DNA from: Methyloceanibacter caenitepidi
GTDB lineage: Bacteria; Pseudomonadota; Alphaproteobacteria; Rhizobiales; Methyloligellaceae
DNA length: 64,000 nucleotides
Assembly: GCF_000828475.1 (NCBI RefSeq)
Contig: NZ_AP014648.1
Location: 3,111,400-3,175,399 of the forward strand
Reading direction: 5' to 3'
This document shows positions 21,052-41,620 of this stretch, piece after piece (positions within the stretch are counted from its first letter, which is position 1; each line of letters begins with the position of its first letter). The notes below the pieces were generated by a model. It was not told the origin of the DNA, made no database searches, and was given only the letters and a program-made list of their open reading frames with translations. Position numbers and translations under genes: made by a program.

Positions 21052-21139
21052 CCTCCCTCGATGGCCCCAAATCGCTGCGAGGGGAACAATGCGCCAAACG
21101 CCTTGGCCGGACCTCACACAACGACCGACAACATGCCGC

Positions 21140-24100
21140 CTAGACGCCGTGCGACGCAACCTCGGAATGGTGTGACTTTGGGCTCGTCATTTTCCGCCGC
21201 AGTTCGAAGCCCTTCACCAGGCTGTAGATGGCCGGAATCACCGCCAAGGTAAGAAGCGTCGACGAGGCCATGCCGCCGATCATCGGTACTGCAATCCGCT
21301 GCATGACTTCGCTGCCGGCACCATGCGCCCAGAGTATGGGGAGCAAGCCCGCCATGATCGCGGCCACGGTCATGATCTTGGGGCGCACGCGGCCCACCGC
21401 GCCGGAAACGATTGCGGCGTGGAGATCGCCCGGTCCAAACGGTCTGCCCTCATCTTCGCAAGCGGCCATCCGCTCCTTCAGCGCGTTCTCGAGATAGATC
21501 AGCATCACGACTCCCGTCTCGGCGGCGACGCCGGCCAGAGCGATAAAGCCGGTAACGGCGGCCACCGAGAAATTGAAATCGAGCCACCACATGAACCAAA
21601 CGCCGCCGACCAGGGCAAACGGTACGGACAACATGACGATCACTGTCTCGGTCAGCCGGCCGAAATTGAGATAGAGCAGCACGAAGATCACGAGCGCAGT
21701 AAGCGGCACGACGATCTGCAAGCGTTTTTCGGCGCGCTGCAGATACTCGAACTGACCGCTCCAGGCCACGTAATAGCCCGGCGGGAAGTTGACGGTCTCG
21801 GCCACCGCTTTCTGCGCGTCCGCAACGTAGCTGCCGATGTCCCGGTCACGAAAATCGACGAAGATGTAGAGCGCGAGTTGCGCATTCTCCGTGCGGATCA
21901 TCGTGGGGCCTTGAGCTACCGTGACCGTCGCGACCTCGCTCAAGGGCACGGTGCCACCCGCCGGCGTCGGGATCAGCACTTCGTTCGCAATGGCCTGCGG
22001 GTCGTTGCGATAGTCGCGCGGATAGCGGACCGCGACCTTGTACCGCTCGCGCCCCTCGACCGTCGTCGTGACCGCATTCGCGCCCAGCGCCGTCGCGATC
22101 ACGTCCTGCACATCGCCGACCATGAGCCCATAGCGGGCAAGCCGCGCGCGGTCGGGGTCGATGTTGATGTAATAGCCGCCGGTCGCCCTTTCCGCATAGG
22201 CACTCGTCGTGCCCGGCACGTCCCGCACCGCCGCCTCGATCTTACGGGCGAGATCTTCCATCTCACCGAGATCGCGCCCGATCACCTTGATACCGACCGG
22301 CGTCCGGATGCCGGTCGACAGCATGTCGGTGCGCGCCTTGATCGGCATGGTCCAGGAATTCGAAACACCCGGAAACTGCAGCGCCTTATCCATCTCGGCC
22401 GTCAGTGCATCGATGGTCATGCCGTCGCGCCATTCGCTTTCCGGCTTCAGGTTGATGACCGTCTCGAACATTTCCATAGGGGCCGGGTCAGTGGCCGTCG
22501 CTGCGCGCCCTGCCTTGCCCCACACGGACTCCACTTCCGGAAAGCTCTTGATGATCTTGTTCTGGGTCTGCAGCAACTTGCCCGCCTCTGTGACCGAGAC
22601 GCCGGGCAACGTCGTCGGCATATAGAACAGCGTGCCCTCGTTGAGGGCCGGCATGAACTCGCTGCCGATCTTCGATGCGGGCCAGACAGTCACCCCGAGC
22701 GCGGCGATAGCGACCACGACGGCAAGGACCCTGAAGCGCAGGACGAATTCGATAACGGGCCGGTAGATCCAGATCAGCGCCCGATTCAGCGGATTCTTGT
22801 GCTCGGGAATAATCCGCCCCCTCACGAACAAGATCATCAGCGCTGGCACCACGAAGATCGACAGAAGCGCGGCTGCCGCCATGGAGAACGTTTTTGTGTA
22901 GGCCAGCGGCTTGAACAAACGCCCTTCTTGCGCCTCTAGCGCGAAGATCGGCAAGAACGAAACCGTTATGATCAGCAGGCTGAAGAAGAGCGCGGGCCCG
23001 ACTTCGACCGCGGCCTCGATGATGGTCTCGCTGCGGGACTCGCCAGGTGGCGCGTGCTCGAGCCGCTTGTGCGCGTTCTCGATCATAACGATCGAGGCGT
23101 CCACCATGGCGCCGATGGCAATGGCGATACCGCCGAGACTCATGATGTTCGAGGACAGGCCCAAGGCCCACATGCAGATATATGCCATCAGGACGCCCAA
23201 CGGCAGCGTGATGATCGCCACGAGCGCACTGCGCGCGTGCATGAGAAAGATCACGCAGACCAAAGCCACGATGAGGCTTTCCTCGATGAGCGTGCGCTTC
23301 AGCGTATCGATGGCCCGATAGATCAGGGCCGACCGGTCATAGACGGTCTCGACGCTCACGCCCTCCGGAAGGCTGGGCGCGATCTGAGCAAGACGCTTCT
23401 TCACACTGTCGATGACGGACAAAGCGTTCTCGCCGTAGCGCTGCAGAACGATCCCCGAGACGGCTTCGCCATTGCCGTTCACTTCGGACAGACCCCGGCG
23501 TTCGTCCGGAACCAGTTCGACGCGCGCGACATCTTTGAGGAGGACCGGAACGCCCGTGTCGTTCTTCAGCACGATGGACTCGATGTCCTCAAGGCTCGTG
23601 ATGTAGCCGCGGCCGCGCACCATGTATTCTCGCTCGGACAGTTCGAGCGTGCGCCCGCCGACATCCATGTTGCTGTCGCGGATGGCGCTTGTGACCTTGG
23701 ACAACGGGATGCCGAGTGCCTGCAGCCGGCGCGGATCGACGACGACGCTGTATTGTTTGACGAAGCCGCCAACGCTCGCGACCTCGGCGACGCCGGACGC
23801 CTGGGATAAGCCGTAGCGGACATACCAGTCTTGGAGGGTCCGCAGGTCGGCCAGACTTTGATCGCCGCCTTTCAGGACATATTGGTAGACCCAGCCAACG
23901 CCCGTCGCGTCCGGGCCGAGCTCCGGCGTTACGTCGGCGGGCAGATCCCCGGCGGCCGCGCTCAGCGATTCCATGACCCGCGAGCGCGCCCAGTAGACGT
24001 CGGTGCCGTCGTCGAAGATCACATAGACGAACGACACGCCGAAGAACGAGAACCCGCGCACGGTGCGCGCCTTGGGCACGGTCAACATGGCGGTGGTCAG

Positions 24101-24304
24101 CGGATAGGTGACCTGATCCTCCACGACCTGCGGCGCCTGCCCCGGATACTCGGTGTAGACGATCACCTGCACGTCGGACAGATCGGGGATCGCATCCAGC
24201 GGCACCTTCTGAACCGCATAGAGACCGAGCAGCGTCACAAACGCAGTGGCGATGCTCACCAGGACGACGTTGCGCGCCGACCAGCGGATGATGCCAGCGA
24301 TCAT
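21140..24304 (-). CDS. cusA: CusA/CzcA-type heavy-metal efflux RND pump
   Basis: A 1054-residue inner-membrane RND pump of normal length with two halves of six transmembrane helices. Landmarks are PDLSDVQVIVYTEYPGQAP, GFSFFGVSFVYVIFDDGTD, and the helix-4 segment LGGIAIAIGAMVDASIVMIE with an acidic proton-relay residue. A Met-rich stretch (PAPMEMFETVI, SWTMPIKARTDM) resembles the methionine ligands of CusA, so copper or silver is a more likely substrate than cobalt, zinc or cadmium. It overlaps the cusB stop by four bases, so the two are translationally coupled. No CusC-type outer-membrane channel gene is in the window. Confidence 0.9.
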   Translation of the reverse strand: MIAGIIRWSARNVVLVSIATAFVTLLGLYAVQKVPLDAIPDLSDVQVIVYTEYPGQAPQVVEDQVTYPLTTAMLTVPKARTVRGFSFFGVSFVYVIFDDGTDVYWARSRVMESLSAAAGDLPADVTPELGPDATGVGWVYQYVLKGGDQSLADLRTLQDWYVRYGLSQASGVAEVASVGGFVKQYSVVVDPRRLQALGIPLSKVTSAIRDSNMDVGGRTLELSEREYMVRGRGYITSLEDIESIVLKNDTGVPVLLKDVARVELVPDERRGLSEVNGNGEAVSGIVLQRYGENALSVIDSVKKRLAQIAPSLPEGVSVETVYDRSALIYRAIDTLKRTLIEESLIVALVCVIFLMHARSALVAIITLPLGVLMAYICMWALGLSSNIMSLGGIAIAIGAMVDASIVMIENAHKRLEHAPPGESRSETIIEAAVEVGPALFFSLLIITVSFLPIFALEAQEGRLFKPLAYTKTFSMAAAALLSIFVVPALMILFVRGRIIPEHKNPLNRALIWIYRPVIEFVLRFRVLAVVVAIAALGVTVWPASKIGSEFMPALNEGTLFYMPTTLPGVSVTEAGKLLQTQNKIIKSFPEVESVWGKAGRAATATDPAPMEMFETVINLKPESEWRDGMTIDALTAEMDKALQFPGVSNSWTMPIKARTDMLSTGIRTPVGIKVIGRDLGEMEDLARKIEAAVRDVPGTTSAYAERATGGYYINIDPDRARLARYGLMVGDVQDVIATALGANAVTTTVEGRERYKVAVRYPRDYRNDPQAIANEVLIPTPAGGTVPLSEVATVTVAQGPTMIRTENAQLALYIFVDFRDRDIGSYVADAQKAVAETVNFPPGYYVAWSGQFEYLQRAEKRLQIVVPLTALVIFVLLYLNFGRLTETVIVMLSVPFALVGGVWFMWWLDFNFSVAAVTGFIALAGVAAETGVVMLIYLENALKERMAACEDEGRPFGPGDLHAAIVSGAVGRVRPKIMTVAAIMAGLLPILWAHGAGSEVMQRIAVPMIGGMASSTLLTLAVIPAIYSLVKGFELRRKMTSPKSHHSEVASHGV

Positions 24305-25557
24305 TGTCCCGCCTCCTCAGTCTCGAGGTTGCGAAGTGCCGCTTTGAGATTGCTTTCGGAGTCGATCAGAAAGGTTGCGGAAGTGACGACTTCGTCCCCA
24401 TCGGCGAGTCCATCGAGAACTTCGACATAGCCGTCGCCGCGCCGCCCGATCTTTACCGCGCGCGGCTCGAATTTCCCGTCGCCCTTGGCGATCAGGACCG
24501 TCTTTCTGGTCCCGCTATCGATCACGGCGCTTGCAGGAACGGCGGTGACCGGGCTCGTCTTCTCGCCGGGGTGAAACACGACGTCAGCGTACATGCCGGG
24601 TCTGATATGCCCGTCCTCGTTGGGCAACACGATCCGAACCGGGATCGTCCGCGTCTCGAGCTTCCGCATCTCCGGGTAGATGAACCCGACTTTCGCCTCG
24701 ATGGGATCGTTGGGAAAGGCGCGCAAGGTGACGGTCACCGGCGTCCCGGTTGCGATGTCGCCGATATCCGCTTCGGCGACCTCCGCAATCACCCACATGC
24801 GCGTGTGATCGGCGATGCGGAACAGTTCCTCGCCCGCCTCGACGAATTGACCGTTAATGGCGCTCTTGGAGGTCACGTCTCCCGTCGCGGGCGACGGCCA
24901 ATCGAGGGTGCGCGGGTTGTCCTTGGACTGCAGCACCTCGTCGATACGGCTCTGGGGCACGCCGAGATTGCGCATCTTCTGGATGGCACCATCGAGATCG
25001 CGGCGGCCGCGTCCTTGCGCGCGCAAGGCGACGAGAAGGTCCGCCTGGGCGAGCTGAATTTGCGGACTGTAGAAGCGGAAGAGAGGTTCCCCCTTCTTCA
25101 CTTCTTGGCCGGTCTTGTCGACGAACAAATCCTCGATATAGCCGTCCGACCGGACGGTCACGATGGTTAGCAGAGACTCGTCATGCTCCACGGTCCCGGC
25201 GGCGCGAACGTCGCGCGAGACAACACGCTTTTCCGCCTTTGCCGTGCGCACGCCGCTGCGCTGCACCTTGCCCGGACTGATCGAGACCGTGCCGTCGTCG
25301 GACTCTTCATCCGCGTAGACCGGAATGTAGTCCATGCCCATCGAGTCCTTCTTCGGCACCGGCGAGGTGTCGGGAAGGCCCATCGGGTTGCGGTAGTAGA
25401 GCACTTTGCGCTCGGCGCTGTCGCCTGCGCCGGCGGACATCGCCATCTCGCCCGGCGCGGCGTGCTCTCCGGCCGTTGTGTGAAAGTACCAATAGGCACT
25501 CCCGGCTCCTGCCAGGAGTCCCGCCGCAAGCATCGCGGCGTTCGTCAGACGCGTCAT
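24301..25557 (-). CDS. cusB: CusB-type periplasmic adaptor of an RND metal pump
   Basis: A 418-residue membrane-fusion protein. An N-terminal signal or anchor (MTRLTNAAMLAAGLLAGAGS) is followed by a short heavy-metal-binding domain (YRNPMG...DSMGMDYIPVY) around residues 50-85. Barrel-sandwich (lipoyl) and beta-barrel segments come next (RDVRAAGTVEHDESLLTIVTV, GYIEDLFVDKTGQEVKKGEP) with an alpha-hairpin between. The metal-binding domain is a mark of CusB-like adaptors that pass Cu(I) to CusA. The ATG at 25557 follows GGAGAGG; a TTG five codons upstream is less likely. The stop overlaps the cusA start. Confidence 0.9.
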   Translation of the reverse strand: MTRLTNAAMLAAGLLAGAGSAYWYFHTTAGEHAAPGEMAMSAGAGDSAERKVLYYRNPMGLPDTSPVPKKDSMGMDYIPVYADEESDDGTVSISPGKVQRSGVRTAKAEKRVVSRDVRAAGTVEHDESLLTIVTVRSDGYIEDLFVDKTGQEVKKGEPLFRFYSPQIQLAQADLLVALRAQGRGRRDLDGAIQKMRNLGVPQSRIDEVLQSKDNPRTLDWPSPATGDVTSKSAINGQFVEAGEELFRIADHTRMWVIAEVAEADIGDIATGTPVTVTLRAFPNDPIEAKVGFIYPEMRKLETRTIPVRIVLPNEDGHIRPGMYADVVFHPGEKTSPVTAVPASAVIDSGTRKTVLIAKGDGKFEPRAVKIGRRGDGYVEVLDGLADGDEVVTSATFLIDSESNLKAALRNLETEEAGQ

Positions 25558-25682
25558 GATGCGCCTCTCCAATAATTCGTTGCGTCGTCCCCGCGGTTCA
25601 ATTGCAGAGGACCTCGTTGCACGGGCTCACGCGCAGGCGGATTCCGGGCGCGGAGCGGGCGTGCGGTTGGTGCTGTGGAGAG

Positions 25683-26090
25683 TTAGACGCGTGGAGGCGG
25701 CGACGGCAGGCGAATGGCGGGCGCCTGCAGGCTCGGCGTTGCCCAGCCGGTGGGGATGGCTGCAAAGGCAAAGGACGGCGTGGCGGGTCCGATCGACAGC
25801 ACACCGGTCACGGCAAGACCGAGACAAAGGCACTTGGAGCAGCCACTATCGGGGCATCGACCGCGATCGTCCGCTGTCGGCGCGGACGCAGCGTCCGTTT
25901 CGACCGATGCCATCGCCGCATGGTTCTCGCAGTCGCCATGCATCGATGCCGGCTCGCCCCCGTCATGTTCGACGGATGCAGGCGATCCCATCGTGGCGGC
26001 CATGCGCATGGCCGCGCTGGCGCTTGTCGCAGGCAAGACCGCGAGCGCGCATACGATGAGAGCCGTAACGATGGTTCTGAACTCGGCCAT
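25683..26090 (-). CDS. Small Cys/His/Met-rich exported protein next to cusBA
   Basis: A 135-residue protein with a signal peptide (MAEFRTIVTALIVCALAVLP, cleaved near ASA). The next 60 residues are rich in Met and His (MRMAATMG, EHDGGEPASMHGDCENHAAM). A CPDSGCSKCLCLG motif with four Cys leads into a hydrophobic C-terminal part. The family is not recognised with confidence; it resembles the small DUF2946-like proteins found beside copper efflux genes. It probably binds copper in the periplasm. The ATG at 26090 has AGGTG just upstream. It precedes cusB by about 125 bases on the same strand and may be the first gene of the copper operon. Confidence 0.65.
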   Translation of the reverse strand: MAEFRTIVTALIVCALAVLPATSASAAMRMAATMGSPASVEHDGGEPASMHGDCENHAAMASVETDAASAPTADDRGRCPDSGCSKCLCLGLAVTGVLSIGPATPSFAFAAIPTGWATPSLQAPAIRLPSPPPRV

Positions 26091-26200
26091 ATGCACCTGA
26101 ATTTCGTCCTGGCCGCTCCTTACGTCAAGTGACGAGGCCGTGAGGTTGGTTAAGGGCGCCTTTCTGGGTGTCGGTGCTTGGCGCCACCAGACAACACCGT

Positions 26201-26740
26201 TCAGCCAGAAGTCTCCGGCACGGCGCGCCTGACCGGCCATTCGGCCATCAGATATTTGCGGAACCAGGCGGTGTATCGCTCGGGCGCGACCAATGCATCG
26301 GCCTGGACGTCGTCCACGGCCGCCCAGCGATAGGCCTGAGCCTCGTCCGGGTTCGGCACGATTGCTCCGTCATGGACGCCGTGAAAGACGTGGACAATTT
26401 CGTGTTCGATCATGTCGTGGTCGAGTTCCGCCCGGTAGCGGATCGTACCGAGCCCCTCCAACGGGCAGACAAATCCCATTTCCTGTTGCAAACGCCGCCG
26501 TGCGGCTGCATCGGACGCCTCGCCGGGGCGCGGGTGCCCGCAGCAGGCGTTGGTCCAAAGACCGCCGGAATGGTACTTCTCGGAACTTCGCTGCTGCAGC
26601 AGCATCCGGTCTGCATCGTCCCAGATGATCACCGAGAATGCGCGGTGCAGAGAGCCCTGTCTGTGCACCTCGTGCTTCTCGCCGGTGCCGATCTGGCGAT
26701 CGGAATCGTCAACGAGAATGACTTTCTCCAAAGTCTGCAT
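26201..26740 (-). CDS. idi: Isopentenyl-diphosphate delta-isomerase, type I
   Basis: A 179-residue Nudix-fold enzyme that interconverts isopentenyl and dimethylallyl diphosphate, using Mg2+ or Mn2+. The catalytic Cys lies in LWTNACCGHPRPGE, the catalytic Glu region is MIEHEIVHVFHG, and GEKHEVHRQGSLHRAFSV gives metal-ligand histidines. The longer open frame upstream to 26833 overlaps the squalene synthase stop; the ATG at 26740 begins the family pattern. It is the last gene of the sterol-type block, 73 bases after the squalene synthase gene. Bacteria using the MEP route do not strictly need Idi, so its place here suggests a higher supply of farnesyl diphosphate for squalene. Confidence 0.9.
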   Translation of the reverse strand: MQTLEKVILVDDSDRQIGTGEKHEVHRQGSLHRAFSVIIWDDADRMLLQQRSSEKYHSGGLWTNACCGHPRPGEASDAAARRRLQQEMGFVCPLEGLGTIRYRAELDHDMIEHEIVHVFHGVHDGAIVPNPDEAQAYRWAAVDDVQADALVAPERYTAWFRKYLMAEWPVRRAVPETSG

Positions 26741-26813
26741 GGCGCAAAACTCTTGAATCGGCAGGACACTGTCAAGGGCCCGAGAAATCGAGGGCGCGGT
26801 CGCCTCCGCTCCG

Positions 26814-27905
26814 TCAGGACTGGCGAATGGCATTCGCCTCGCACAGGCTGGCCATGCCGGACATGGTCCAGCGCGTCAGCGAATCGCTTCGGCAAATAAC
26901 CGGCGCCGCAAGCATCACGCTCTTGACCGTCGAACGTGAGATTTTCGGCCGATAGTCCGACGAGAACTGCAACACCTGCACGATACGATTGAGGGTGGCA
27001 TAGGCCATACCGATGGCAAGCAAGCAGAATTGCCGAATGCCGGTGTGCCGGCGCGGTATCGTCAGCGTGTAGTCGACGGCATTGGCCAAATGGTCCAGCG
27101 CAATCCTTGCAAGCCGGTGGATCGTCGGCCGGAAAGCGGGCTTTCGTGCGGCGCCGTCGAGATCGCGCAGATCCAGGCTCGCTGAACAGAAGAGGCTTTG
27201 CGGCAGGTAGCAGCGCCCTTGCCGGCGGTCATCCCAGATGTCTTTCAGAATGTTCGTCATCTGCAGACCTTGGCCAAAGCTCGCGGCGAGCTTCTCGAGC
27301 TTCTCCCGGTGCGCGTCGATGTCCGCAGCATGGTCGCAGAAAAGCTCGGTGAGCATCTCGCCGACGACGCCTGCCACCACATAGCAATAGTCGTCCAGCT
27401 CGGCCATGTCGGCCAGCCCTGTCGGACGGTTGACGAAGGACTTCATGCCCGACGCCATCTTCTTGAGACAGGTGCGAACGGCTTCCTGCTGTCTTACAGG
27501 ACGGGTCTTCAGGATATCGATCAGGCCGGGCAGACTCTCGATGAGCTCGAGCTCCTCCGGGCCCACTTCTCCCGACAAATCAGCGGCAAGGCGCCTGGAA
27601 ACCTCATCCCAGGACTCCGTGCGTTCGACCCCAGCAAGGAACAGGTCGAGTTGAGCGATCTTCCGGTCGCAATCCGGAAGCTGAGAATCCTCGATCGTGT
27701 CCGCGGCGCGGCATAGCAGGTAAGCGGTCCCCACCGTAGACCGCAGATCCGATGGCAGTTTTGGAATCGTCAGCGCGAAGGTGCGCGACAGCTGGGGCAC
27801 CAGCAGTAGCGGAAGCTCTTCATTGCCGACTGTCCGATCCAACACGTTTGCTCTAAGCCCCCACAATTTTGACACGCCGCTTCGAAAACCGGTTAGCCGA
27901 TCCAA
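26814..27905 (-). CDS. Squalene synthase-like (squalene/phytoene synthase family) protein
   Basis: A 363-residue prenyl-head-to-head synthase. Substrate-binding motifs are visible: LSRTFALTIPKLP, the first aspartate-rich motif CRAADTIEDS, DYCYVVAGVVGEMLTELF, and the second motif LQMTNILKDIWDDRRQGRCY. The YCYVVAG form and GRCYLP after the second motif fit eukaryote-like squalene synthases better than phytoene synthase or the HpnC/HpnD pair. It would join two farnesyl diphosphates to squalene using NADPH. The start is uncertain: the frame opens with TTG at 27905 and an in-frame GTG lies 23 codons downstream, with no strong ribosome-binding site at either. Genomic context with the epoxidase and cyclase supports squalene as product. 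Confidence 0.78.
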   Translation of the reverse strand: MDRLTGFRSGVSKLWGLRANVLDRTVGNEELPLLLVPQLSRTFALTIPKLPSDLRSTVGTAYLLCRAADTIEDSQLPDCDRKIAQLDLFLAGVERTESWDEVSRRLAADLSGEVGPEELELIESLPGLIDILKTRPVRQQEAVRTCLKKMASGMKSFVNRPTGLADMAELDDYCYVVAGVVGEMLTELFCDHAADIDAHREKLEKLAASFGQGLQMTNILKDIWDDRRQGRCYLPQSLFCSASLDLRDLDGAARKPAFRPTIHRLARIALDHLANAVDYTLTIPRRHTGIRQFCLLAIGMAYATLNRIVQVLQFSSDYRPKISRSTVKSVMLAAPVICRSDSLTRWTMSGMASLCEANAIRQS

Positions 27906-28143
27906 CCGACCCAGGATAGCCGCCCTAAGCCACAGGCGTCAGGCGAGGAATCACGCGGCGCCCTCGACAGCATATCCGCCAATCTCTGGACGATTGTGGC
28001 TGCTGCCCGATTTCATGCACAGAAAGCCCGCGCAAAACGCCTGGAATTGCCGTCGGCGGCGATTGAAATCCCTCAGGTCACGCCCACAAAGCCACGAGCG
28101 GCTGGATACCGCCTCATCCTAACACACAGGCCACCCCGCCGGT

Positions 28144-28533
28144 TCACGACTTTGTCAGGGTGACGCTTCCATTGGCGCGGGAACTCTTGAACGACATGGT
28201 CTGGACATCTTCGTCGATAACGACCCGCACGCGTCCGGAGATATCGTAGGAGGCGACATGGAATTCCCCGACATACACCCCCGGATTGACCTTCAATAGC
28301 TGACCGGTCTGGTTGATCGCCGTAGAGATGGTCACGCATTTCGCTGCGAGTTTGTAGACCTTCTCGGTCTCGCGCTTGTACTTGATGCGGCACGTCAGCT
28401 TCTGGGGCGGATTGTCCATGGCCTGCATCGTGCCGCTGCCGCTCCACGTCCCTTCTAGCGGCAGTGGTTCCGCCTGGAGGGGCGAGACCGTCGCCGCCAA
28501 CAGTACGGCGCATAGCGATATCAGGCTTCTCAT
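28144..28533 (-). CDS. Small exported beta-rich protein in the sterol-type operon
   Basis: A 129-residue protein with a signal peptide (MRSLISLCAVLLAATVSPLQ, cleaved near A-EPLPL). The mature part starts EGTWSGSGTMQ, followed by KLTCRIKYKRETEKVYKLAA, KCVTISTAI, VYVGEFHVASYDISGRVRVV and VQTMSFKSSR. Two Cys probably form a disulfide. The alternating strands suggest a lipocalin-like beta barrel. It resembles a widespread Hyphomicrobiales exported family of unknown function, so it need not be sterol-specific. It starts 26 bases after the RND gene with a strong AGGGAGGATCTT site. A periplasmic lipid carrier partner to the RND pump is a testable idea. Confidence 0.72.
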   Translation of the reverse strand: MRSLISLCAVLLAATVSPLQAEPLPLEGTWSGSGTMQAMDNPPQKLTCRIKYKRETEKVYKLAAKCVTISTAINQTGQLLKVNPGVYVGEFHVASYDISGRVRVVIDEDVQTMSFKSSRANGSVTLTKS

Positions 28534-28559
28534 TAAGATCCTCCCTGGCAGCATCTTGC

Positions 28560-30860
28560 CTAGCTGCTTTTGACCGTCGGCCTCGGCGCGCCCGTCCGCC
28601 AGGCCCGCCCTTCAACAAACGCGATCAACGCCGGCAGTACCAAAAGGTTCGCCAGCAGCGCCGTTGCCAAAAGCATTATCACGACTTCTCCAAACAGGCG
28701 CAGGCTGGGAAGCTCGCTGAGAACCGTGCCTCCAAACCCGACGATCAACACCAGGCACCCGACGGCAAGCGCCGGACCGATAGTGGCGATGGTCTCCTCG
28801 AGGGCCGGCGTCACGGCTTCGCCGTTGGTCCGCATCAAACGATAGTAGTTCAGGATGTGAATGGCATTGTCCACCGCGATGCCGAAACCGATGGTGAAAG
28901 CGACCACACAGGTGAATTGCAGGCCTGCGCCCGTGAGATGGAGGATTGCACCGGCAACGGCGATGGGCAGGACGTTGGTCACCATGCTGTAGAGCCCTGC
29001 TCGCAACGACCAGAAGACGAGGCCGATCAGGAGAATATTGAGCCCGATTGCGATCAACAGACTGCGGTTGAGCTCGACGATCATGTCGTAGCTGGCCCGC
29101 GCGGAATGAGGGGCGATCCCGGTGGCGATGAAACGCACGCCCGGATGCGCCGCCCGCAACGCTTCGAGATCGGTCTCGAGCGCGTCTAGAACGGGCACGA
29201 GTTCGGAGGCGTCCACCGCTGGAAAATAGCCGGACACCAGCGCCGAATGCTCGTCCACCGACATCATGCGCTCCACGAACGGCGACTGCGACTCCTCCAG
29301 GAAGTCCAGGACTTGCTCCTGCTTGAGGCCGCCCTCCAGCATCCAGGATTCGATGCTGTGCAGGGACACCGCGCGCGTCACGAGTGGCAGCGTCTCCAGG
29401 GTCTCATGCGCGTCCCCGACCACGGCAAGAACCTGCGCAGGATCGAGAGGCTTGTCTTTCGGCCATTGGATATGGAGGAGGATGGCCTCGGTACCGCCAA
29501 ACTCTTTGTCGACCACGTCCATGACCCGCGAAGACTGGCTGTTGGCCGGCAAATAGTCCCTGTACTGATAGCTTGGGCTGATTGTGGCGTAGAGAATGCC
29601 TGCACCGATCGCAACGATGAGCCCGGCGACAAGAAAGGCGGTGGGGTTGCCGAGTATGGTGCGGCCCAACCGCCTGCAGATCGCGCTCGTGGCTGTGAAG
29701 ATGCGGTCGAGTGTACGATCCGAATTTTCCTTTCTCCCGCGCCGGCCCAGGAGCAGCGTCCCCAGCGCCGGAAGGACCGTGATCGTCGTCAGGAAGGCGA
29801 CGGCCGTGCCGATGGCGGCGGTGAGACCGAAGCCGGACACAAGCGTATGCGGCACAAGCGTAAGGGACAGCAGTGCGATTGCGGTCGTCATCGCTGCGAG
29901 GACGCAAGCCGGGCCGATGTCCCGCACGGACGATACGATCGCCTCGCGCGCGCCCTCCCCCGCAACAACTTTGCGTTTGATGCCGAACAGCAGATGCAGC
30001 GAGCTTGCAAAGACCAGCACTGTGACCAGCCCCGGCACCACGCCTGTCAGCACGGTGATCTCCTGCCCGCGCAACTCCGTGATCCCCAGGGTCCACAGAA
30101 CCGCGATGCCTGCCGGCACGCCGGCGAGCAAGGCGTAGATGGGGCTGCGGAAGAACAGTAGGCAGATAATAAGCGACACCGCGAAGCCCGCCCCGATCAG
30201 GAGACGCTGATCGCGGATCAAGGCGCCGACGATCTCGAGACGGAAGAACGCTACGCCGCTGAGCTCGGGCTTCATGTCCGTGCCCGCCAGCGCTTCGTCG
30301 GTCACCTGCCGCATATCGTCCGCGACGACGCGAAGATCGTCGATTTTCGGCCGGGGCTCGATCGCGACCACGAACAGCGCCGTCGTCGCATCCGCCGATA
30401 GAAGCTTGCCGGAAACAAAGGGGTGGGCCAGCAGCGTGTCGCGCAAGTTCAGAATATCCACGCCGTCGAGTTCCATCGGGAAGACCGCCTCGGCATTACC
30501 TGAGGCATCCGGCGCGTCGTGCGCCGAAAACATCGACGTGACGTGTTTCACGCCTTCGGCGAAGTGAAGGTTCAGGTGGAGGTCGCGCAGATGCTCGAGA
30601 TTTTTGCGGCTGAAGAGATCCGGCGCCTGCACCAGCAGCAGCACATCCTCCCCGGTCTGCGGATACTGCTTCTCCACCATTTGGAGATTGCGGAACTCCT
30701 CCGTCCCGGAACGGAAGATCTCGCGAATGTCGCTGGAGAACTCGACCTTTGCAGCGGCAAAGGCCAGCGGAATGGTCAGCACGGCGACAATCAGCAGAGT
30801 GATTCGCGGGAAGCGCTGCGCCAGCAGTCCCAGCTTTTCGATGCCGAAGCCCGCCGTCAT
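28560..30860 (-). CDS. RND/MMPL superfamily transporter, candidate sterol exporter
   Basis: A 766-residue inner-membrane protein with two MMPL halves, each with one helix, a large periplasmic loop and five more helices. Landmarks are VEFSSDIREIF after the first helix, ALLAGVPAGIAVLWTLGITE, VLTGVVPGLVTVLVFASSLH, and in the second half FTIGFGIAVDNAIHILNYYR. It is of the HpnN type, exporters of hopanoids and other lipids, and also resembles in type the RND protein BstA reported for sterol transport in Methylococcus. It starts at the ATG at 30860, which overlaps the cyclase stop by four bases, so it is translationally coupled to the cyclase. That coupling is the main reason for proposing sterol or triterpenoid export. 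Confidence 0.85.
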   Translation of the reverse strand: MTAGFGIEKLGLLAQRFPRITLLIVAVLTIPLAFAAAKVEFSSDIREIFRSGTEEFRNLQMVEKQYPQTGEDVLLLVQAPDLFSRKNLEHLRDLHLNLHFAEGVKHVTSMFSAHDAPDASGNAEAVFPMELDGVDILNLRDTLLAHPFVSGKLLSADATTALFVVAIEPRPKIDDLRVVADDMRQVTDEALAGTDMKPELSGVAFFRLEIVGALIRDQRLLIGAGFAVSLIICLLFFRSPIYALLAGVPAGIAVLWTLGITELRGQEITVLTGVVPGLVTVLVFASSLHLLFGIKRKVVAGEGAREAIVSSVRDIGPACVLAAMTTAIALLSLTLVPHTLVSGFGLTAAIGTAVAFLTTITVLPALGTLLLGRRGRKENSDRTLDRIFTATSAICRRLGRTILGNPTAFLVAGLIVAIGAGILYATISPSYQYRDYLPANSQSSRVMDVVDKEFGGTEAILLHIQWPKDKPLDPAQVLAVVGDAHETLETLPLVTRAVSLHSIESWMLEGGLKQEQVLDFLEESQSPFVERMMSVDEHSALVSGYFPAVDASELVPVLDALETDLEALRAAHPGVRFIATGIAPHSARASYDMIVELNRSLLIAIGLNILLIGLVFWSLRAGLYSMVTNVLPIAVAGAILHLTGAGLQFTCVVAFTIGFGIAVDNAIHILNYYRLMRTNGEAVTPALEETIATIGPALAVGCLVLIVGFGGTVLSELPSLRLFGEVVIMLLATALLANLLVLPALIAFVEGRAWRTGAPRPTVKSS

Positions 30861-32845
30861 CGCGGCAATCCCTGGACGGTCATGTCCGCGTTGACGCGCA
30901 CATCCGCGGCGCCCAACGCCCACAGTCCGAAAATCTTGCGGTAATTGTCGTAGGTGATCGCGCAGGTGCGATTGAACACACCGGCGATGGCCTCATCTGG
31001 CCAACTGCCGTCGGCGCGCTGCCGGTCCTGTAGGAAGCGCAGTCCGGCGCGTACCGGCTCGCTGTCGGCCATCTCGGTCTGAAGCAGGCTGAGCACGGCC
31101 CACGACGTCATCACGACCTGGCCCTCCGGGGTGCTCGCATACGTCCCGCGCCGGCAGCTTTCAATGGTCTCGCCCCAGCCGCCATCGGGCAACTGATGCG
31201 AGACGAGAAACGCCGCGGCCCGGCGAAGGGCGGCGCTATCGGCGGGCAGCCCGGCCGCCCGCAGGGCCGAGACCGCGAACCAGGTCCCGTAGGTGAAGCA
31301 GATGCCCCAGGCGCCCATCCAAGCGCCGTCGTCACGCTGCCGCGCCAGCAGAAAATCGCGGCCACGCGCGATCGCCTTATCAATGCACTGGGCACGCGCC
31401 GGATCGACGCCTTGGTCGCGATACCGGATGAGCGCCTGCACGCAGGCCGACGTGCACTCTACATAGGAGTGATCCACCATGATGTCGGCGAAGACCAGCG
31501 ACGGGTTCAGCGCTTCCATCCACGATGGCGTCCGCGCCTTTTCGTAGGTTGGCCAGCCTCCATCGGCATTCTGCCAGCCGAGGATCAACTCAGCCGCATC
31601 GTCGAGGCGCTCATCGTGGATGGGCTCGTCGACAATGGCGCGCAACGCGATCGCGGCTTTCAAACCCTCCGCGGTGCAGTCCGAAATCGGCCAGCCGTGC
31701 GTCCGGTTCGAGAACGGCCAGCCGCCCTGGGATGGATCGCGGAAATAGCGCTCCCGGTCCGGCGTGTCTTCGAGCACCTGGTTTGCTTCGATATAGGCAT
31801 GGGCCAACTCCAGCATGGGCTTCGCAGTTCCGGCGCGGCCGGACGCGCAGATGGCTTGCACAGCGAAGGCAGTGTCCCAAAGCCGCGAGGAATTGTAGCC
31901 CTGCATATGCGTGCCGTGCTCCCCCTTCCACAGATACTCCGGCAGCTGCCGCCGATGTGCGGCGACGCGTTTCCCGTCAGGCTCGGCAAAGTGCCAACAC
32001 AGCATGTTGAGCACCTTGTTGATGGGCCCGATGCAAATATTGTTCGTGTTCTCGTCCTCCTGGCGGACTTGATCCAATACGAAGTCGGTCGCCCGGGCCC
32101 GCAAGCGCTCGCCGGCGATGGCCTCGTAGCCGTTCAGCAGACCGTTCAGAAGGCGGTAGCCCCGCGACAGCGGGGCGTAGATGTCACCGGCCGCGCACTG
32201 CATCTGGCTGCCGCGGAAGTCCAATGCCTCGTAGGGCTCGCAAAAGATCTCGTCGCGCAGCGCGCGCACGACCGGCGTCAACGGCGCCTGAGCCCTGATC
32301 CCGTAGAGATAGCTCATGGGCAAAAAGATCATGCGGCTATGGCACCAGAAGCGGGACGGATGGGCGGGCAGCCACGTCGGGAGAAGCCATAGCTCCGGCG
32401 GAACGGGCATGACGCCGTCGTAGTCGTACAGATTGAGGAGCGCGAGCAGGAACTTGCCCCATGGTGGCAGGTTGGCCGCGCCGCCGCGCTCAAGCAGCCA
32501 GACGCGCGCGCGCTCCAAACCGGGATCGTCCGCCGGGACGCCCAGCAGCCGCTGCGCCACGTAGCACAGAGCCGTGGCATAGGCGTAGCTCTCGCCTTGG
32601 ATGTGGAGCGGCCAGCCGCCATCGGCATTCTGGTGATGCTTGAAGAAGCGGATGAAGTCCTGCTCGGTCTCGGGATCGAACGGCTCGCCGACGATATGCG
32701 TCGCGACGATCAGGGTCGGCAGCAGGAACACAGGTCCGCCGTAGTCGCCGTGCCAGCTCCCGTCGGGCGCTTGCGTGTCCTGCAGGTGCCGCCGCGCCAG
32801 ATCGACGGCCTGCGACAGGTCCTTCTGCGCCGCCCAGTGGTTCAA
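30857..32845 (-). CDS. Oxidosqualene cyclase, cycloartenol synthase-like
   Basis: A 662-residue triterpene cyclase. It has several QW repeats (QAPDGSWHGDYGG, QNADGGWPTYE, QLPDGGWGE, QRADGSWPDE). The catalytic motif is ISDCTAE with Asp389, the form of oxidosqualene cyclases; squalene-hopene cyclases have DxDD there. ICIGPINKVLNMLCW and MQGYNSSRLWDTAFA are also OSC-type. Tyr317, His383 and Ile387 align with Tyr410, His477 and Ile481 of Arabidopsis cycloartenol synthase, so cycloartenol is the predicted product. The frame is open to 33106, but those residues overlap the upstream gene. A TTG at 32845 overlapping that gene's TGA gives the usual N-terminus (LNHWAAQKDLSQAV). It is a peripheral inner-membrane enzyme acting on 2,3-oxidosqualene. 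Confidence 0.9.
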   Translation of the reverse strand: MNHWAAQKDLSQAVDLARRHLQDTQAPDGSWHGDYGGPVFLLPTLIVATHIVGEPFDPETEQDFIRFFKHHQNADGGWPLHIQGESYAYATALCYVAQRLLGVPADDPGLERARVWLLERGGAANLPPWGKFLLALLNLYDYDGVMPVPPELWLLPTWLPAHPSRFWCHSRMIFLPMSYLYGIRAQAPLTPVVRALRDEIFCEPYEALDFRGSQMQCAAGDIYAPLSRGYRLLNGLLNGYEAIAGERLRARATDFVLDQVRQEDENTNNICIGPINKVLNMLCWHFAEPDGKRVAAHRRQLPEYLWKGEHGTHMQGYNSSRLWDTAFAVQAICASGRAGTAKPMLELAHAYIEANQVLEDTPDRERYFRDPSQGGWPFSNRTHGWPISDCTAEGLKAAIALRAIVDEPIHDERLDDAAELILGWQNADGGWPTYEKARTPSWMEALNPSLVFADIMVDHSYVECTSACVQALIRYRDQGVDPARAQCIDKAIARGRDFLLARQRDDGAWMGAWGICFTYGTWFAVSALRAAGLPADSAALRRAAAFLVSHQLPDGGWGETIESCRRGTYASTPEGQVVMTSWAVLSLLQTEMADSEPVRAGLRFLQDRQRADGSWPDEAIAGVFNRTCAITYDNYRKIFGLWALGAADVRVNADMTVQGLPR

Positions 32846-34164
32846 TGTCCCGCGGCCTTGAGATGGGCCGGTATCTTCCGGTAGCCCGGAAGTAGACCGG
32901 CGATCGGCCACGTGCTCCACGACGCGAACCGCGCCAGTGTTTGCCGCGTGCGGCTCCAGTGCCCCTCGCGCATCTCCGTACCGACCGTCTTGCGTGCGGC
33001 GCGGAAACCGATCCTGAAGAACGACGTCGCGAACGTACTCCCGCGCACATCCGTCGCGGCGAGCAGGGCCATCGTGCGGCGGCGCTCTGCGGCGCTCGTG
33101 CGCCACGTATCGAACATCGATTGCCGGATGGCGCGGGCATCGTACCGGGGATCGGAAAAGACCTGATAGAGCGCGTTCGAAAGCATCTCCGGCACCCGCG
33201 CTCGCGCTTTCTGCCGACGCGCGTAGTCCGCCGTATCGGCGCTTTCGACCAAGGCCTCCACGTCCTTCAACCCCAGCGAAATGCCGACCGCCGTGAGCGG
33301 ATGGGTACAGCCGACCGCGTCGCCGACCAACGCCACGTTGCCGCGCCCGTAGGCGGTCCGGGTCTGAAACCGCGTTTCCATCCAGGCGGGCTTACGGGTC
33401 TTCAAGGACACGGCAAGCGCCGTTGCCATCGGCGCCGGCAGCGCCGGCGCGACCGCCGCATAGAGCGCGTTCGTATCGTGCCGGAGCTCCGTCGCCGATG
33501 CGGGCACGTCGAGACACAAACGCACCTGATTAGCGCCGATCCGGTACGACAGGATGGGGCCGGCCAGACCGCTCAGGACGTGGCCATAGCCTTCAACGGG
33601 CAGTTCCACGTCGTCGAGAACGATACCGGCCATGAAGGAGATGCCGACCGAACCGTCGGGCAGACCGAGAAGACGGCGCGTTCCCGAGCGGCGGCCGTCG
33701 GCCGCCACGATCCGCTTCGCTTTGATCGCAATCTCTGCGCCCGTATCTCCGTCCACATAGGCCGGCGCCGGCTCGAGCTTGCTCAGCTTCGCCGGCGCGA
33801 CATAGTCGATCTCGGGCATCGAGACGGCCCTTCGGCGCAGTTCGTCAACGAGCTTGTGATGCTCGAAGCTGACGCCCGTCATGCCGTCCGGATAGGACAA
33901 GACAATCGGTTCCGAGCCGTCGCCGGGATGGGCGACGAAACCCCGCCGCGGTCCGTTCTCCGTCAGCGCCGCAAGATCACTTAGTCCAAGCTTCTCGAGG
34001 ATCCTGACGCCGGACGGGTGGATCCACTCGCCCGCGAATCTCTCAGAAGCGCGCGGGTTGGCCTCGAGGAGCAGGACGGTCTCCCCGCGCTGGGCAAACG
34101 CGATGGCCGCGGCGCATCCGATCGGACCCGCACCAATCACCGCAACGTCATGATCCGTTCGCAC
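32842..34164 (-). CDS. Squalene monooxygenase-like FAD-dependent enzyme
   Basis: A 440-residue flavoprotein of the UbiH/squalene epoxidase superfamily. The FAD-binding GxGxxG is in VAVIGAGPIGCAAAIAFAQR. The second FAD motif is VALVGDAVGCTHPLTAVGIS, where HPLT followed by a Gly-rich turn is typical of squalene epoxidases. RFAGEWIHPSG matches the conserved R-x-x-GE-x-x-P-G stretch of that family. It would add oxygen to squalene to give 2,3-oxidosqualene, needing O2 and an unknown reductase. The start chosen is GTG at 34164, with GGTGGA upstream; the frame extends to another GTG at 34236. It is the first gene of the operon and overlaps the cyclase by four bases. Without its neighbours it could be called only a FAD-dependent monooxygenase. 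Confidence 0.78.
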   Translation of the reverse strand: MRTDHDVAVIGAGPIGCAAAIAFAQRGETVLLLEANPRASERFAGEWIHPSGVRILEKLGLSDLAALTENGPRRGFVAHPGDGSEPIVLSYPDGMTGVSFEHHKLVDELRRRAVSMPEIDYVAPAKLSKLEPAPAYVDGDTGAEIAIKAKRIVAADGRRSGTRRLLGLPDGSVGISFMAGIVLDDVELPVEGYGHVLSGLAGPILSYRIGANQVRLCLDVPASATELRHDTNALYAAVAPALPAPMATALAVSLKTRKPAWMETRFQTRTAYGRGNVALVGDAVGCTHPLTAVGISLGLKDVEALVESADTADYARRQKARARVPEMLSNALYQVFSDPRYDARAIRQSMFDTWRTSAAERRRTMALLAATDVRGSTFATSFFRIGFRAARKTVGTEMREGHWSRTRQTLARFASWSTWPIAGLLPGYRKIPAHLKAAGH

Positions 34165-34462
34165 CTGGGTTCCACCGGCTGTCGTAAGCACGCAAAGACA
34201 GGCGGGAATCCGCCCTGTCCTGTCCAGCGCCGACACGATCGCCGAGCCGGACTCTCATATGAATCGTAACGGGTTGGGGCCGACTTGGCCATCCCGCCAA
34301 CCCGCGAAAACGGAACGGCCTCAGCAGGCTAGGTGATCCGCAATCGCATAACGCTCGTACTTCCGAACTGTGGCAAGCAGATGCCACCTTCCCACATCCT
34401 GAATGACCGGTACGAGGCGACGGCGACTGGTCACCACGGTAGGTTTCGGCGGACGATAGGTC

Positions 34463-34840
34463 ATGAAAAGTTTCTTGGCGGCCCTCCTCATCGGATGCGC
34501 CCTCCTTCCAGCGCCCGTTTTCGCGGATTCCGAAAACGAGCACCTGTCGTGTGTGAAGGAGTTGCCGGACCCTTATAGCCTTGCCACCCGGCGAAACTAC
34601 GTTCTGACCTGCCGGACGAAAGTTCCCGGCCTCACCGTGTCGAAGATCACGGCCAACGAGGACAAGTGCGAATGCCGGCCCGTATTGCCCACCGAAAACA
34701 TGAAACAGGGCGCACGGATCATGTCGATCTGCCGCGATGCCGGACATCCCTGCGACTTCACCGAAGTCACATTCGAGACGAGCGCGGGCGACTTCACCTT
34801 TACATGGTCTGAGGACGACGACGCCCTGGACATTCCGTAA
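34463..34840 (+). CDS. Small Cys-rich exported protein
   Basis: A 125-residue protein with a signal peptide (MKSFLAALLIGCALLPAPVF, cleaved near A-DSE). After the signal the mature chain has six Cys (SCVKE, LTCRT, DKCECRP, SICRDA, HPCDF), enough for three disulfides. It ends with an acidic tail (WSEDDDALDIP). No family is recognised. GATAGGTC precedes the ATG. The gene is divergent from the sterol-type operon, with 298 bases between the two start codons that must contain both promoters. No link in function is implied by this alone. Confidence 0.65.
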   Translation: MKSFLAALLIGCALLPAPVFADSENEHLSCVKELPDPYSLATRRNYVLTCRTKVPGLTVSKITANEDKCECRPVLPTENMKQGARIMSICRDAGHPCDFTEVTFETSAGDFTFTWSEDDDALDIP

Positions 34841-34918
34841 GAGCGCCCCAACCCGGCGACACAGCGTTTGCCCAGCTCGACGCAGGCATGTCGGCCATCT
34901 CGGGATTTTGGAGAGGAA

Positions 34919-34993
<75 letters not shown>

Positions 34994-35014
34994 GGTCTGT
35001 GTGGCAAGGCGCCT

Positions 35015-35043
35015 TCTATATGGGTGGCGGCGCCAGAAGGCAA
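35015..35043 (-). promoter_or_regulatory. Sigma-70 promoter for tRNA-Val
   Basis: TTGCCT (35043-35038) and TATAGA (35020-35015) on the minus strand are separated by exactly 17 bases. The expected start point near 35008 is about 15 bases upstream of the mature tRNA 5' end. Confidence 0.7.
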
Positions 35044-35066
35044 GCGGCGGATTTCGGTGCTTTTCC

Positions 35067-35456
35067 CTAAGCCGCCAGCATGCGCTCCACCTGGTCGACC
35101 AAATCGCGCAGGTGGAAGGGCTTGGACAGGATCTTGGCGTCTTTCGGCGCGTTGTTGTCCGGATTGAGCGCCACAGCCGCGAAACCGGTGATGAACATGA
35201 TCTTCAGGTCCGGATCGAGTTCGGCGGCTTTGCGGGCCAGCTCGATTCCGTCCATCTCGGGCATCACGATATCGGTCAGAAGTAGCATGAAGGGCTCTTC
35301 CTGGAGCCGCTCGTAAGCCTCCATGCCATTGCCGAACGAGACCACGTCGTAACCGGCCTTCTCCAGCGCCTTCACCAGGAACCGGCGCATATCGTCATCG
35401 TCTTCGGCAAGAAGAATACGCTGAACGCTGCGCACGCGCGGGTCGTTCGCCTCCAT
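35067..35456 (-). CDS. cpdR: CpdR-type single-domain response regulator
   Basis: A 129-residue stand-alone receiver domain. It has RILLAEDDDDMRRFL (acidic pocket), the phospho-acceptor Asp62 in LLLTDIVMPEMDG, IMFITGFAAVAL and the conserved ILSKPFHLRDLVDQV. In Caulobacter, unphosphorylated CpdR localises ClpXP protease to the pole and primes it to degrade cell-cycle proteins; phosphorylation comes through CckA-ChpT. Compared with Caulobacter CpdR there is an N-terminal extension of about 11 residues (MEANDPRVRSV). GAGGATT precedes the ATG. It is divergent from an N-formylglutamate amidohydrolase gene, an arrangement I know from other Hyphomicrobiales. Confidence 0.88.
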   Translation of the reverse strand: MEANDPRVRSVQRILLAEDDDDMRRFLVKALEKAGYDVVSFGNGMEAYERLQEEPFMLLLTDIVMPEMDGIELARKAAELDPDLKIMFITGFAAVALNPDNNAPKDAKILSKPFHLRDLVDQVERMLAA

Positions 35457-35700
35457 AATCCTCGTCCCCCTCAACACACACCCTGTATCGCCTACACGAA
35501 TATGGTAAACGACCGCTTGCCTTATTCTTGAATGATTGGCGCGGTCCCAACCCGTGGGCCCCCAGATCATTGCCGCTATTGAGCCCCGGCACAAGCCGGA
35601 ACACGCCTGGACAGTCCCCCCTGTCATTGGCAGAGTTAACGCCGGTGCGCTGTCACACGGCCGGCGCCGCTCCCGGAACCGAAGAACCCAGGTTTGGCGT

Positions 35701-36600
35701 ATGAAGCAACTAGAGGCTGAGGCGATCGAGCGGGAACTGTCACCGCCCTTCACCGTGGTGCGACCCGCGAAACTGTCGCTTCCCCTCGTCTTCAACTCGC
35801 CCCACTCGGGCCGGGTCTATCCCAGCACCTTCCTGGCCGCCTCCAAACTCGACGCGCTGACCTTGCGGCGATCGGAAGACGCGTATGTGGATGAACTCTT
35901 TTCTTTCGCCGCCGCGCTCGGGGCCCCGCTCCTTCATGCTCATTTTCCGCGCGCCTATCTCGACGTGAACCGGGAGCCTTATGAGCTCGATCCGATCCTG
36001 TTCCGCGACGGGCTCCCGCACTATGCCAACACCCAATCGGTCAGGGTCGTCGGAGGGCTCGGGACGATCGCGCGGATCGTTTCGGAGTCCGAGGAGATCT
36101 ACCGGGAGCCCCTTTCGGTCGAGACGGCCCTTGAACGGATCAACCGTCTCTACGTTCCCTATCACGAGACTCTCGCGGCACTCCTGATGGAAGCGAAGCG
36201 GGAGTTCGGCTTCGCCGTGCTGATCGACTGCCATTCCATGCCCTCGAGCCCGAACGCCGACAAACGATCGACCCGCGCCGACTTCGTACTGGGCGACCGC
36301 TTCGGGACCTCGTGCAGCAGCGAGCTGACGCGCATGGCCGCGCGCTCCCTCGAGGCACAGGGTTTCGGCGTAGCGCTCAACAAGCCCTACGCAGGCGGGT
36401 ACATCACCGAGCACTACGGACGCCCGCACAAGGCCCAGCACGTGCTGCAGATCGAGATCAACCGGGCCCTTTACATGGATGAGACGACGTTCGAACGAAC
36501 CGAGCGTTTCGACGTCTTGAGGAAGAAGCTGGAAACGGTGATCCGCGGCCTGATGCCCGGCATTTCCGACCTCATCGTCCCCCGCGCCGCAGCCGAATAG
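35701..36600 (+). CDS. N-formylglutamate amidohydrolase family protein
   Basis: A 299-residue hydrolase. FGase landmarks are LPLVFNSPHSGRVYP, RRSEDAYVDELF, LHAHFPRAYLDVNREPYELD, FAVLIDCHSMPS and GGYITEHYGRP. These carry the conserved His and acidic residues of the family. Such enzymes release formate from N-formyl-L-glutamate in the five-step histidine degradation route, but no hut genes are nearby. The frame extends upstream to 35536, but the conserved part begins soon after the ATG at 35701. It is a paralog of the gene at 7141-8001, and the two differ considerably. A minus-strand sRNA terminator lies 14 bases beyond its stop. Confidence 0.88.
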   Translation: MKQLEAEAIERELSPPFTVVRPAKLSLPLVFNSPHSGRVYPSTFLAASKLDALTLRRSEDAYVDELFSFAAALGAPLLHAHFPRAYLDVNREPYELDPILFRDGLPHYANTQSVRVVGGLGTIARIVSESEEIYREPLSVETALERINRLYVPYHETLAALLMEAKREFGFAVLIDCHSMPSSPNADKRSTRADFVLGDRFGTSCSSELTRMAARSLEAQGFGVALNKPYAGGYITEHYGRPHKAQHVLQIEINRALYMDETTFERTERFDVLRKKLETVIRGLMPGISDLIVPRAAAE

Positions 36601-36613
36601 GCCCAGCCAATCC

Positions 36614-36707
36614 AAAAAAAAGGGCCGTCCGATTGAACGAACGGCCCAAGTCTAGGGAGGAAACGCCCAAGGAGGGCAGCGATATGGCCTGGAGAGCCAT
36701 ATCGCAT
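36614..36707 (-). ncRNA. Candidate small RNA with anti-Shine-Dalgarno loops
   Basis: About 94 bases on the minus strand with three features of a regulatory RNA. A perfect 8-bp hairpin (36681-36703) has loop UCUCCAG. A 4-bp hairpin GCCC/GGGC (36665-36677) has loop UCCUU and is followed by single-stranded GUUUCCUCCCUAG. A terminator stem GGGCCGU/ACGGCCC (36622-36647) is followed by eight U. A promoter lies at the right distance upstream. No open reading frame fits. C/U-rich loops able to pair with ribosome-binding sites recall the alphaproteobacterial anti-SD sRNAs (such as the ar14 type), but membership of a known family is not proven. Confidence 0.65.
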
Positions 36708-36742
36708 TGCAACAATATGTCATTGCAATGCACAAAAATCAA
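36704..36742 (-). promoter_or_regulatory. Promoter with overlapping inverted repeat for the candidate sRNA
   Basis: On the minus strand TTGATT (36742-36737) and CATATT (36719-36714) are 17 bases apart. A perfect 9-bp inverted repeat, GCATTGCAA (36704-36712) and TTGCAATGC (36723-36731), brackets the minus-10 element with a 10-base spacer. That is where a repressor would be expected to bind. The regulator is unknown. Confidence 0.55.
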
Positions 36743-36917
36743 GGTGTAGACGGCAATTGGCGACAGAACTGAAACAGTGATGCCGCAAAGTCACGTTACC
36801 TGGGCTTTGTCCGCCATACCCGCATACGCCGGACAATCCCGCGACCAGACATCGAGCCTGACCTTCAAGGCTCGGAGGCCTTGACTCTCAACGGCAAACA
36901 CCGCCAAGCCTTGTATC

Positions 36918-41306: not shown

Positions 41307-41311
41307 CGGCT

Positions 41312-41620
41312 TTATGCAGGCGGGTTGTCGCGCTCGAGAGCCTCGAGGCTGCCGGTGCGGCCCCCGGGCAGTTCCATCGTGGTGCACGTGCCCTTGGGCA
41401 CGAGCTTCCAGGAATTGCCCTGGTAGTCGATTGTGGACGTCCCCGCGCAGGTCGTACCGGGACCTGCGGCGCAGTCGTTCTCGCCGGCCTTGGCCACGCC
41501 GAAGCACTTCTCCTGCTCGTCTTCGGCTGCAGCGGGTGCGGTGGTTGCGGCAATACCAAGGGCGGCGGCAAAGGCGCTGGCCACGGCAACGCCGGAGAGA
41601 GACTTGGAATGATGGGTCAT
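41312..41620 (-). CDS. bufA: Bufferin precursor peptide, BufA1 type (DUF2282)
   Basis: A 102-residue exported precursor. A long signal peptide of about 32 residues ends TAPAAA-ED. The mature peptide has four Cys in the DUF2282 order: [10 protein letters not shown] (Cys39), [11 protein letters not shown] (Cys50, Cys58) and PKGTC (Cys79). The segment between includes [13 protein letters not shown]. Bufferins are RiPPs whose core cysteines are modified by BufB before export and then buffer copper in the periplasm. Their signal peptides double as leader peptides. AGAAGGACCC precedes the ATG. A strong hairpin lies 42 bases upstream of the start codon. Confidence 0.92.

Follow-up and report, generated by a model that had tools for sequence, protein, structure and literature searches.

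Closest described systems

The closest described system comes from the same strain. Wei, Yin and Welander (2016; PMC4919349) list Methyloceanibacter caenitepidi Gela4 as the only alphaproteobacterium with an oxidosqualene cyclase (OSC) and, in the sections covered here, assign to it a squalene epoxidase (SE; GL4_3111) and a cycloartenol-type Osc (GL4_3110) with neighbouring locus tags (their Table 4). Cycloartenol, a sterol of the plant type, is the only one reported there from the Gela4 culture (their Table 3), and no sterol genes were found downstream of osc, which is consistent with cycloartenol alone. The producer, a marine bacterium that lives on methanol, is therefore already known, and the cluster described below does not add a new sterol-producing species. 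Next door, however, are genes for an RND transporter, a small secreted protein, a squalene synthase (SQS) and an isopentenyl-diphosphate (IPP) isomerase (IDI), which are not discussed in the sections of PMC4919349 covered; the words 'transporter', 'operon' and 'neighborhood' do not occur in its main text. PMC4919349 was the only open-access paper found on Methyloceanibacter with cycloartenol, and the locus tags of the cluster that were tried are absent from the main text, in the part covered, of PMC6417678, which gives the closed Gela4 chromosome as 3,424,964 bp.

Other relatives are known in part. BstABC of Methylococcus capsulatus (PMC10942540, sections covered) likewise includes an inner-membrane protein of the RND superfamily whose gene lies next to sterol genes; the hopanoid transporter HpnN shares the RND/MMPL family and the proposed role in lipid transport; and the myxobacterial cycloartenol synthase clade (Group 2c in the sections of PMC4919349 covered) carries the same tyrosine, histidine and isoleucine (Y/H/I) signature residues as the cyclase discussed here.

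Organization of the cluster

The cluster lies in a window of 64,000 nucleotides (the whole stretch of DNA analyzed), to which all positions refer, and occupies positions 26201-34164 of the minus strand. In the 5' to 3' order of the presumed transcript, it encodes a squalene monooxygenase (epoxidase) at 32842-34164, with a likely GTG start at 34164 in an ORF open from 34236; an OSC of the cycloartenol-synthase type at 30857-32845 (662 residues from a TTG at 32845); an MMPL-family RND transporter, the candidate cycloartenol exporter, at 28560-30860 (766 residues from an ATG at 30860); its partner gene, encoding a small secreted protein whose family is unnamed and keeps two conserved cysteines, at 28144-28533 (ATG at 28533, preceded by GGGAGG); a squalene synthase of the SQS type at 26814-27905, where the start is uncertain and 27905 is an upper bound; and a type I IDI at 26201-26740, with a likely ATG at 26740 in an ORF open from 26833. 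The start codons of the cyclase, RND and small-protein genes are the ones suggested by the junction sequences, as read by eye. All six ORFs are confirmed at the place and on the strand given in the initial annotation. A tRNA-Val gene predicted by ARAGORN (34919-34993, minus strand) forms the edge of the locus.

The TTG of the cyclase overlaps the monooxygenase stop codon (TTGA) and the ATG of the RND gene overlaps the cyclase stop codon (ATGA), so the three genes are probably coupled in translation. The gap between the small-protein gene and the squalene-synthase gene is at least about 240 bases. A single transcript for all six genes is possible from this layout; a sigma-70 consensus scan of 25600-35200 gave 0 promoters against 1.8 expected by chance. 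That the ORFs arose by chance is excluded, because the same gene order recurs in five other carriers of the genus, as far as their contigs reach, at 72-95% protein identity.

The cyclase groups with oxidosqualene cyclases

With the oxidosqualene cyclase model TIGR03463 the protein reaches 789 bits, as against 267 bits with the hopene cyclase model TIGR01507. It falls short of the curated TIGR03463 cut-off of 851, which none of the 385 alphaproteobacterial genomes of a class sample (source genome included) passes, and it does pass the cut-off of the broader model TIGR01787. The catalytic motif is DCTAE (in HGWPISDCTAE), not the DxDD of squalene-hopene cyclases (SHCs). At the three positions that part lanosterol from cycloartenol synthases, the protein has Tyr381, His449 and Ile453 in human numbering; in the PDB it matches lanosterol synthase 1w6k best, and the alignment numbering fits the human numbering of PMC4919349. 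The same triplet is found in six of 95 related loci, three of them from Methyloceanibacter or the same genus and three from MAGs, of which two carry the label Myxococcales and one Bradyrhizobiaceae. In each of the nine SHC-type loci that were compared, an aspartate stands at the position of Ile453.

In a tree of 42 rows, which comprised a subset of the compared loci plus the cluster cyclase and left out the named Group 2c species of PMC4919349, the 34 OSC rows and the eight SHC-type rows separate with 100% support. The cluster cyclase falls on the OSC side, in a nine-row clade with the Myxococcales and Bradyrhizobiaceae MAGs, one Spirochaetes MAG and one Polyangiaceae MAG, and its nearest relatives outside the genus are one Bradyrhizobiaceae MAG and Myxococcales MAGs. 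The initial annotation had named placement with the SHCs as one result that would refute its reading; the cyclase groups with the OSCs, and an SHC identity is rejected on model scores, residue signature and tree position alike. The PF13243 (SQHop_cyclase_C) search returned two matches genome-wide, both inside the single cyclase frame; it found no second gene of the OSC/SHC family, so the genome has no SHC by this search. No relative of the cyclase was found among viral contigs.

Within the class sample, seven of the 385 genomes (source included) exceed 400 bits with the OSC model, and all remaining matches are at or below 272 bits. Five of the six other alphaproteobacterial OSCs are 37-38% identical to the cluster cyclase and have valine at position 453, which by the 453 rule makes these five lanosterol-type enzymes; the sixth OSC gene, at 410 bits, is partial and stayed outside that comparison.

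A rival reading would make this enzyme a lanosterol synthase or an SHC, with a product other than cycloartenol, since it misses the TIGR03463 cut-off and an SHC-type gene does occur in the genus (in G016). We regard this as highly improbable, given the DCTAE motif, the Y/H/I residues, the position in the OSC clade and the published GC-MS, which reports cycloartenol for this very strain (PMC4919349, sections covered).

Epoxidation and substrate supply

The monooxygenase matches the squalene epoxidase family PF08491 (6e-24; 85 bits, against 80 for FAD_binding_3), and in the PDB its top match bears the name squalene monooxygenase (93 bits, against 42 for the next). Its best NCBIfam match is a UbiH-type subfamily model, at 76 bits against a cut-off of 225. 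The evidence is mixed across models, and the flavoenzyme appears closer to squalene epoxidases than to UbiH-type hydroxylases. Placement with UbiH or carotenoid monooxygenases, another result that the initial annotation had named as refuting its reading, is not what the best PDB match points to, and a monooxygenase match accompanies the cyclase in 71 of the 80 OSC loci that ranked best among 197.

The squalene synthase matches SQS_PSY (PF00494, 4e-55), and its best PDB matches are squalene synthases; TIGR01559 (squalene synthase) is its best NCBIfam match, yet at 114 bits against a cut-off of 287. The genome has two SQS_PSY genes, and the cluster copy fits the squalene-synthase model better. 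The copy outside the cluster (a frame of 286 residues) is below the cut-offs of all three NCBIfam models that it matches, the best being HpnD (115 of 279 bits). The IDI passes both type I cut-offs, with 163 bits against 127 for NF002995 and 120 against 106 for TIGR02150.

Each step of the pathway can be provisionally assigned to its gene by homology. IDI would balance IPP and DMAPP; the squalene synthase would join two farnesyl diphosphates into squalene; the monooxygenase would use O2 to convert squalene to 2,3-oxidosqualene; and the cyclase would convert 2,3-oxidosqualene to cycloartenol. We infer that GL4_3111 and GL4_3110 correspond to the monooxygenase and cyclase ORFs. Leaving the export step aside, the locus is very probably the cycloartenol gene cluster of M. 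caenitepidi Gela4, because the published sterol, the Y/H/I signature, the OSC-side position in the tree and the kept gene order all point to it; no observation spoke against cycloartenol. The sterol synthesis that the initial annotation had proposed for an alphaproteobacterium is already in print for M. caenitepidi, with the sterol reported in cells; its suggestion of an unmodified C30 product agrees with cycloartenol as the only sterol reported, and the neutral-lipid analysis it called for has been published, again with cycloartenol (PMC4919349, sections covered).

Candidate tailoring enzymes

The search for genes elsewhere in the genome that might modify cycloartenol covered the P450 and FA_hydroxylase families. 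Two P450 genes lie outside the cluster. The best PDB match of the larger one is an unspecific 'putative cytochrome P450', and the titles of its best 60 of 464 PDB matches include neither CYP51 nor sterol 14-demethylase; the smaller one was compared with NCBIfam only. The sole NCBIfam match of the one FA_hydroxylase-family gene is OlsE, below cut-off. These three genes raise the alternative that cycloartenol is a mere intermediate, modified by either P450 or by the FA_hydroxylase-family protein, and cholesterol 24-hydroxylase does appear among the best 60 of 464 PDB matches of the larger P450, beside many other P450s. The alternative is nevertheless very unlikely, as those same 60 matches include no CYP51 or sterol 14-demethylase title, the FA_hydroxylase-family protein matches OlsE only and below cut-off, and cycloartenol alone is reported in the sections of PMC4919349 covered. 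Further tailoring of cycloartenol would thus not be expected, with no second OSC/SHC gene found and none of the genes found recognized as CYP51 or ERG25.

Distribution in the genus and an empty site

Seventeen genomes of the genus were surveyed, source included. Orthologous cyclases occur in six of them (the source genome G000, and G004, G006, G009, G013 and G014), the G006 cyclase being a 96-residue fragment at a contig end; the orthologous loci include those of Methyloceanibacter methanicus R-67174 and of the Methyloceanibacter MAG MO_226.B1. Two of the 17 have SHC-like matches at 31-32% (G016, plus a fragment in G011), and no cyclase match was found in the other nine, five of which are less than 90% complete. 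The tRNA-Val gene flanks the cluster on the same side in all three carriers with contigs that reach it (G004, G013 and G014); in M. methanicus the distance from cluster to tRNA flank is about 4 kb, against 0.7 kb in the source genome. In G006, the IDI gene adjoins DNA that matches window positions 20348-21058. The cyclase is spread over three frames in G004, and the RND gene over two frames in G004, G014 and G013 (L022, L019 and L021 being the loci of the G004/G014/G013 set); these multi-frame genes could be due either to decay of the sterol cluster or to sequencing error.

The congener G003, with an estimated completeness of 100%, gave no match to the cyclase. Window positions 21209-25710 and 34908-36768 align to its flanks, which are about 1.9 kb apart against 9.2 kb in the source genome, and the tRNA-Val gene is kept at this empty site. 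Among the six cluster proteins, only the RND transporter has a match there below E 0.1; this match is weak and lies within the stretch that aligns to the AcrB-type pump next door. In one flank tree, G003 lies outside the four OSC carriers included; in a second (five rows, midpoint root), it groups with the carrier G013 and the carrier G006 lies outside. Both gain and loss of the cluster are possible. Because one chromosomal site either carries the entire block or lacks it, close species can be compared to test what a bacterial sterol does, and substrate supply, cyclization and the candidate export pair stay together across congeners.

Two features adjoin the cluster on its downstream side. An AcrB-family pump and an HlyD/CusB-type membrane-fusion protein are encoded at 21140-25572 (minus strand), and an ORF at 25683-26240 (minus strand) has a weak CopL-family match, below cut-off, and a 38% relative at the G003 empty site.

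In the same family but another genus, G021 has a monooxygenase (61%) and a partial cyclase (45-47%) adjoining on a 3.4-kb contig (L023, C61), with a distant RND match (27%) on the other side of the two and a separate SHC-like match in the genome. It may represent a second sterol lineage nearby.

OSC loci outside the genus

The survey outside the genus covered 78 loci within the best 80 of 197, many of them incomplete. In this set, RND matches occur in eight of the 78 loci, all weak (22-31%); squalene-synthase matches in nine; IDI matches in three; and small-protein matches in none. Two gammaproteobacterial MAG loci (L070 and L091) have both squalene synthase and IDI. By comparison with the Gela4 cluster, L059-L061, from the Bradyrhizobiaceae and Myxococcales MAGs, have no match to the RND transporter, small protein, SQS or IDI in the stretches covered, and L059 and L060 have no monooxygenase match there either. 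The initial annotation had called the combination of supply, cyclization and export in one block unusual. As regards supply the combination is less rare than that, since supply genes recur near other bacterial cyclases, while among the best 80 of 197 loci the RND and small-protein pair was seen beside an OSC only in Methyloceanibacter.

A candidate export pair

The RND transporter matches the MMPL family (PF03176, 3e-40) and, weakly, the sterol-sensing domain. It differs from BstA and HpnN. Against the BstA model it scores 24 bits where the cut-off is 1400, no BstB or BstC match was found among the cluster proteins scanned, and the small secreted protein of the cluster is of another kind. Against HpnN it is below both cut-offs (66 of 752 bits for TIGR03480 and 38 of 1100 for a second model), and, as noted, no SHC was found in its genome.

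The small protein has a signal-peptide-like N terminus, as read by eye, and no Pfam or NCBIfam match. In an alignment of 15 family members, C55 and C73 are invariant. Neither Pfam nor the PDB offered a usable match to the protein or its family: three of the 15 members hit DUF3617 (best E 0.002) and three hit Inhibitor_I78 (best E 0.02), at most weak leads. A fold prediction from three sequences reached a mean pLDDT of 41.7.

In a protein search, relatives of the small protein occur in 56 of 249 genomes of the order, source included. Read with short flanks, 20 such loci include nine with an RND match upstream, three of which belong to the sterol cluster, and 11 in which none was found; two of the 20 are incomplete. 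With wide flanks, an RND match adjoins the small-protein gene in five of six further loci, the exception being G557. The source genome carries a second pair, with the small protein 43% and the RND transporter 55% identical to the cluster copies, and a pair in G003 is similarly close (46% and 56%); the RND proteins of the G018, G012 and G014 pairs are more distant, at about 28-35% identity. G003, G012 and G018 have the pair and no OSC match. The locus in the congener G012 (L189, 640-8570) also encodes a fatty-acid desaturase as well as a chalcone/type III polyketide synthase, and its RND gene is split over several frames.

A text search of the open-access literature, by words rather than by sequence, did not find the pair, which looks like an undescribed part of the cluster. 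With a paralogous pair elsewhere in the genome and further pairs in relatives that have no cyclase match, it has the look of a general exporter unit that was recruited here: an RND transporter with a secreted partner, one copy of which would have joined the sterol cluster.

Does this pair export cycloartenol? In the proposed mechanism, the RND transporter and its secreted partner would take the sterol out of the inner membrane, to the periplasm or the outer membrane. Such export is plausible; pairs of this kind are also present in genomes where no cyclase match was found. From gene position, we slightly favour movement of cycloartenol out of the inner membrane as the most likely role. The RND start codon overlaps the stop codon of the cyclase gene, and the pair directly follows the cyclase in all five other carrier congeners (G004, G006, G009, G013 and G014), which argues against the pair merely sharing an operon with the sterol genes while exporting a non-sterol substrate. 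That alternative is an appreciable possibility, if a doubtful one: the source genome has its paralogous pair (RND 55%, small protein 43%), relatives without an OSC match have pairs of their own, one of them close to a gene for a type III polyketide synthase, and no small-protein match was found in any of the 78 OSC loci outside the genus. Returning to cycloartenol as the substrate, a more specific proposal, which we hold tentatively and short of probable, is that an undescribed lipid-export unit, with paralogues for other substrates in Hyphomicrobiales, was recruited to export cycloartenol specifically, independently of BstABC and HpnN. Should cycloartenol indeed be its substrate, bacteria would possess two or more separate solutions to sterol export, and the family could be used to seek lipid exporters in other Hyphomicrobiales.

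Elsewhere in the window, on the minus strand at 39655-41507, an MbnB/TglH/ChrH-type RiPP modification enzyme (3.8e-111) is encoded together with a DUF2063 protein, possibly as a small RiPP locus.
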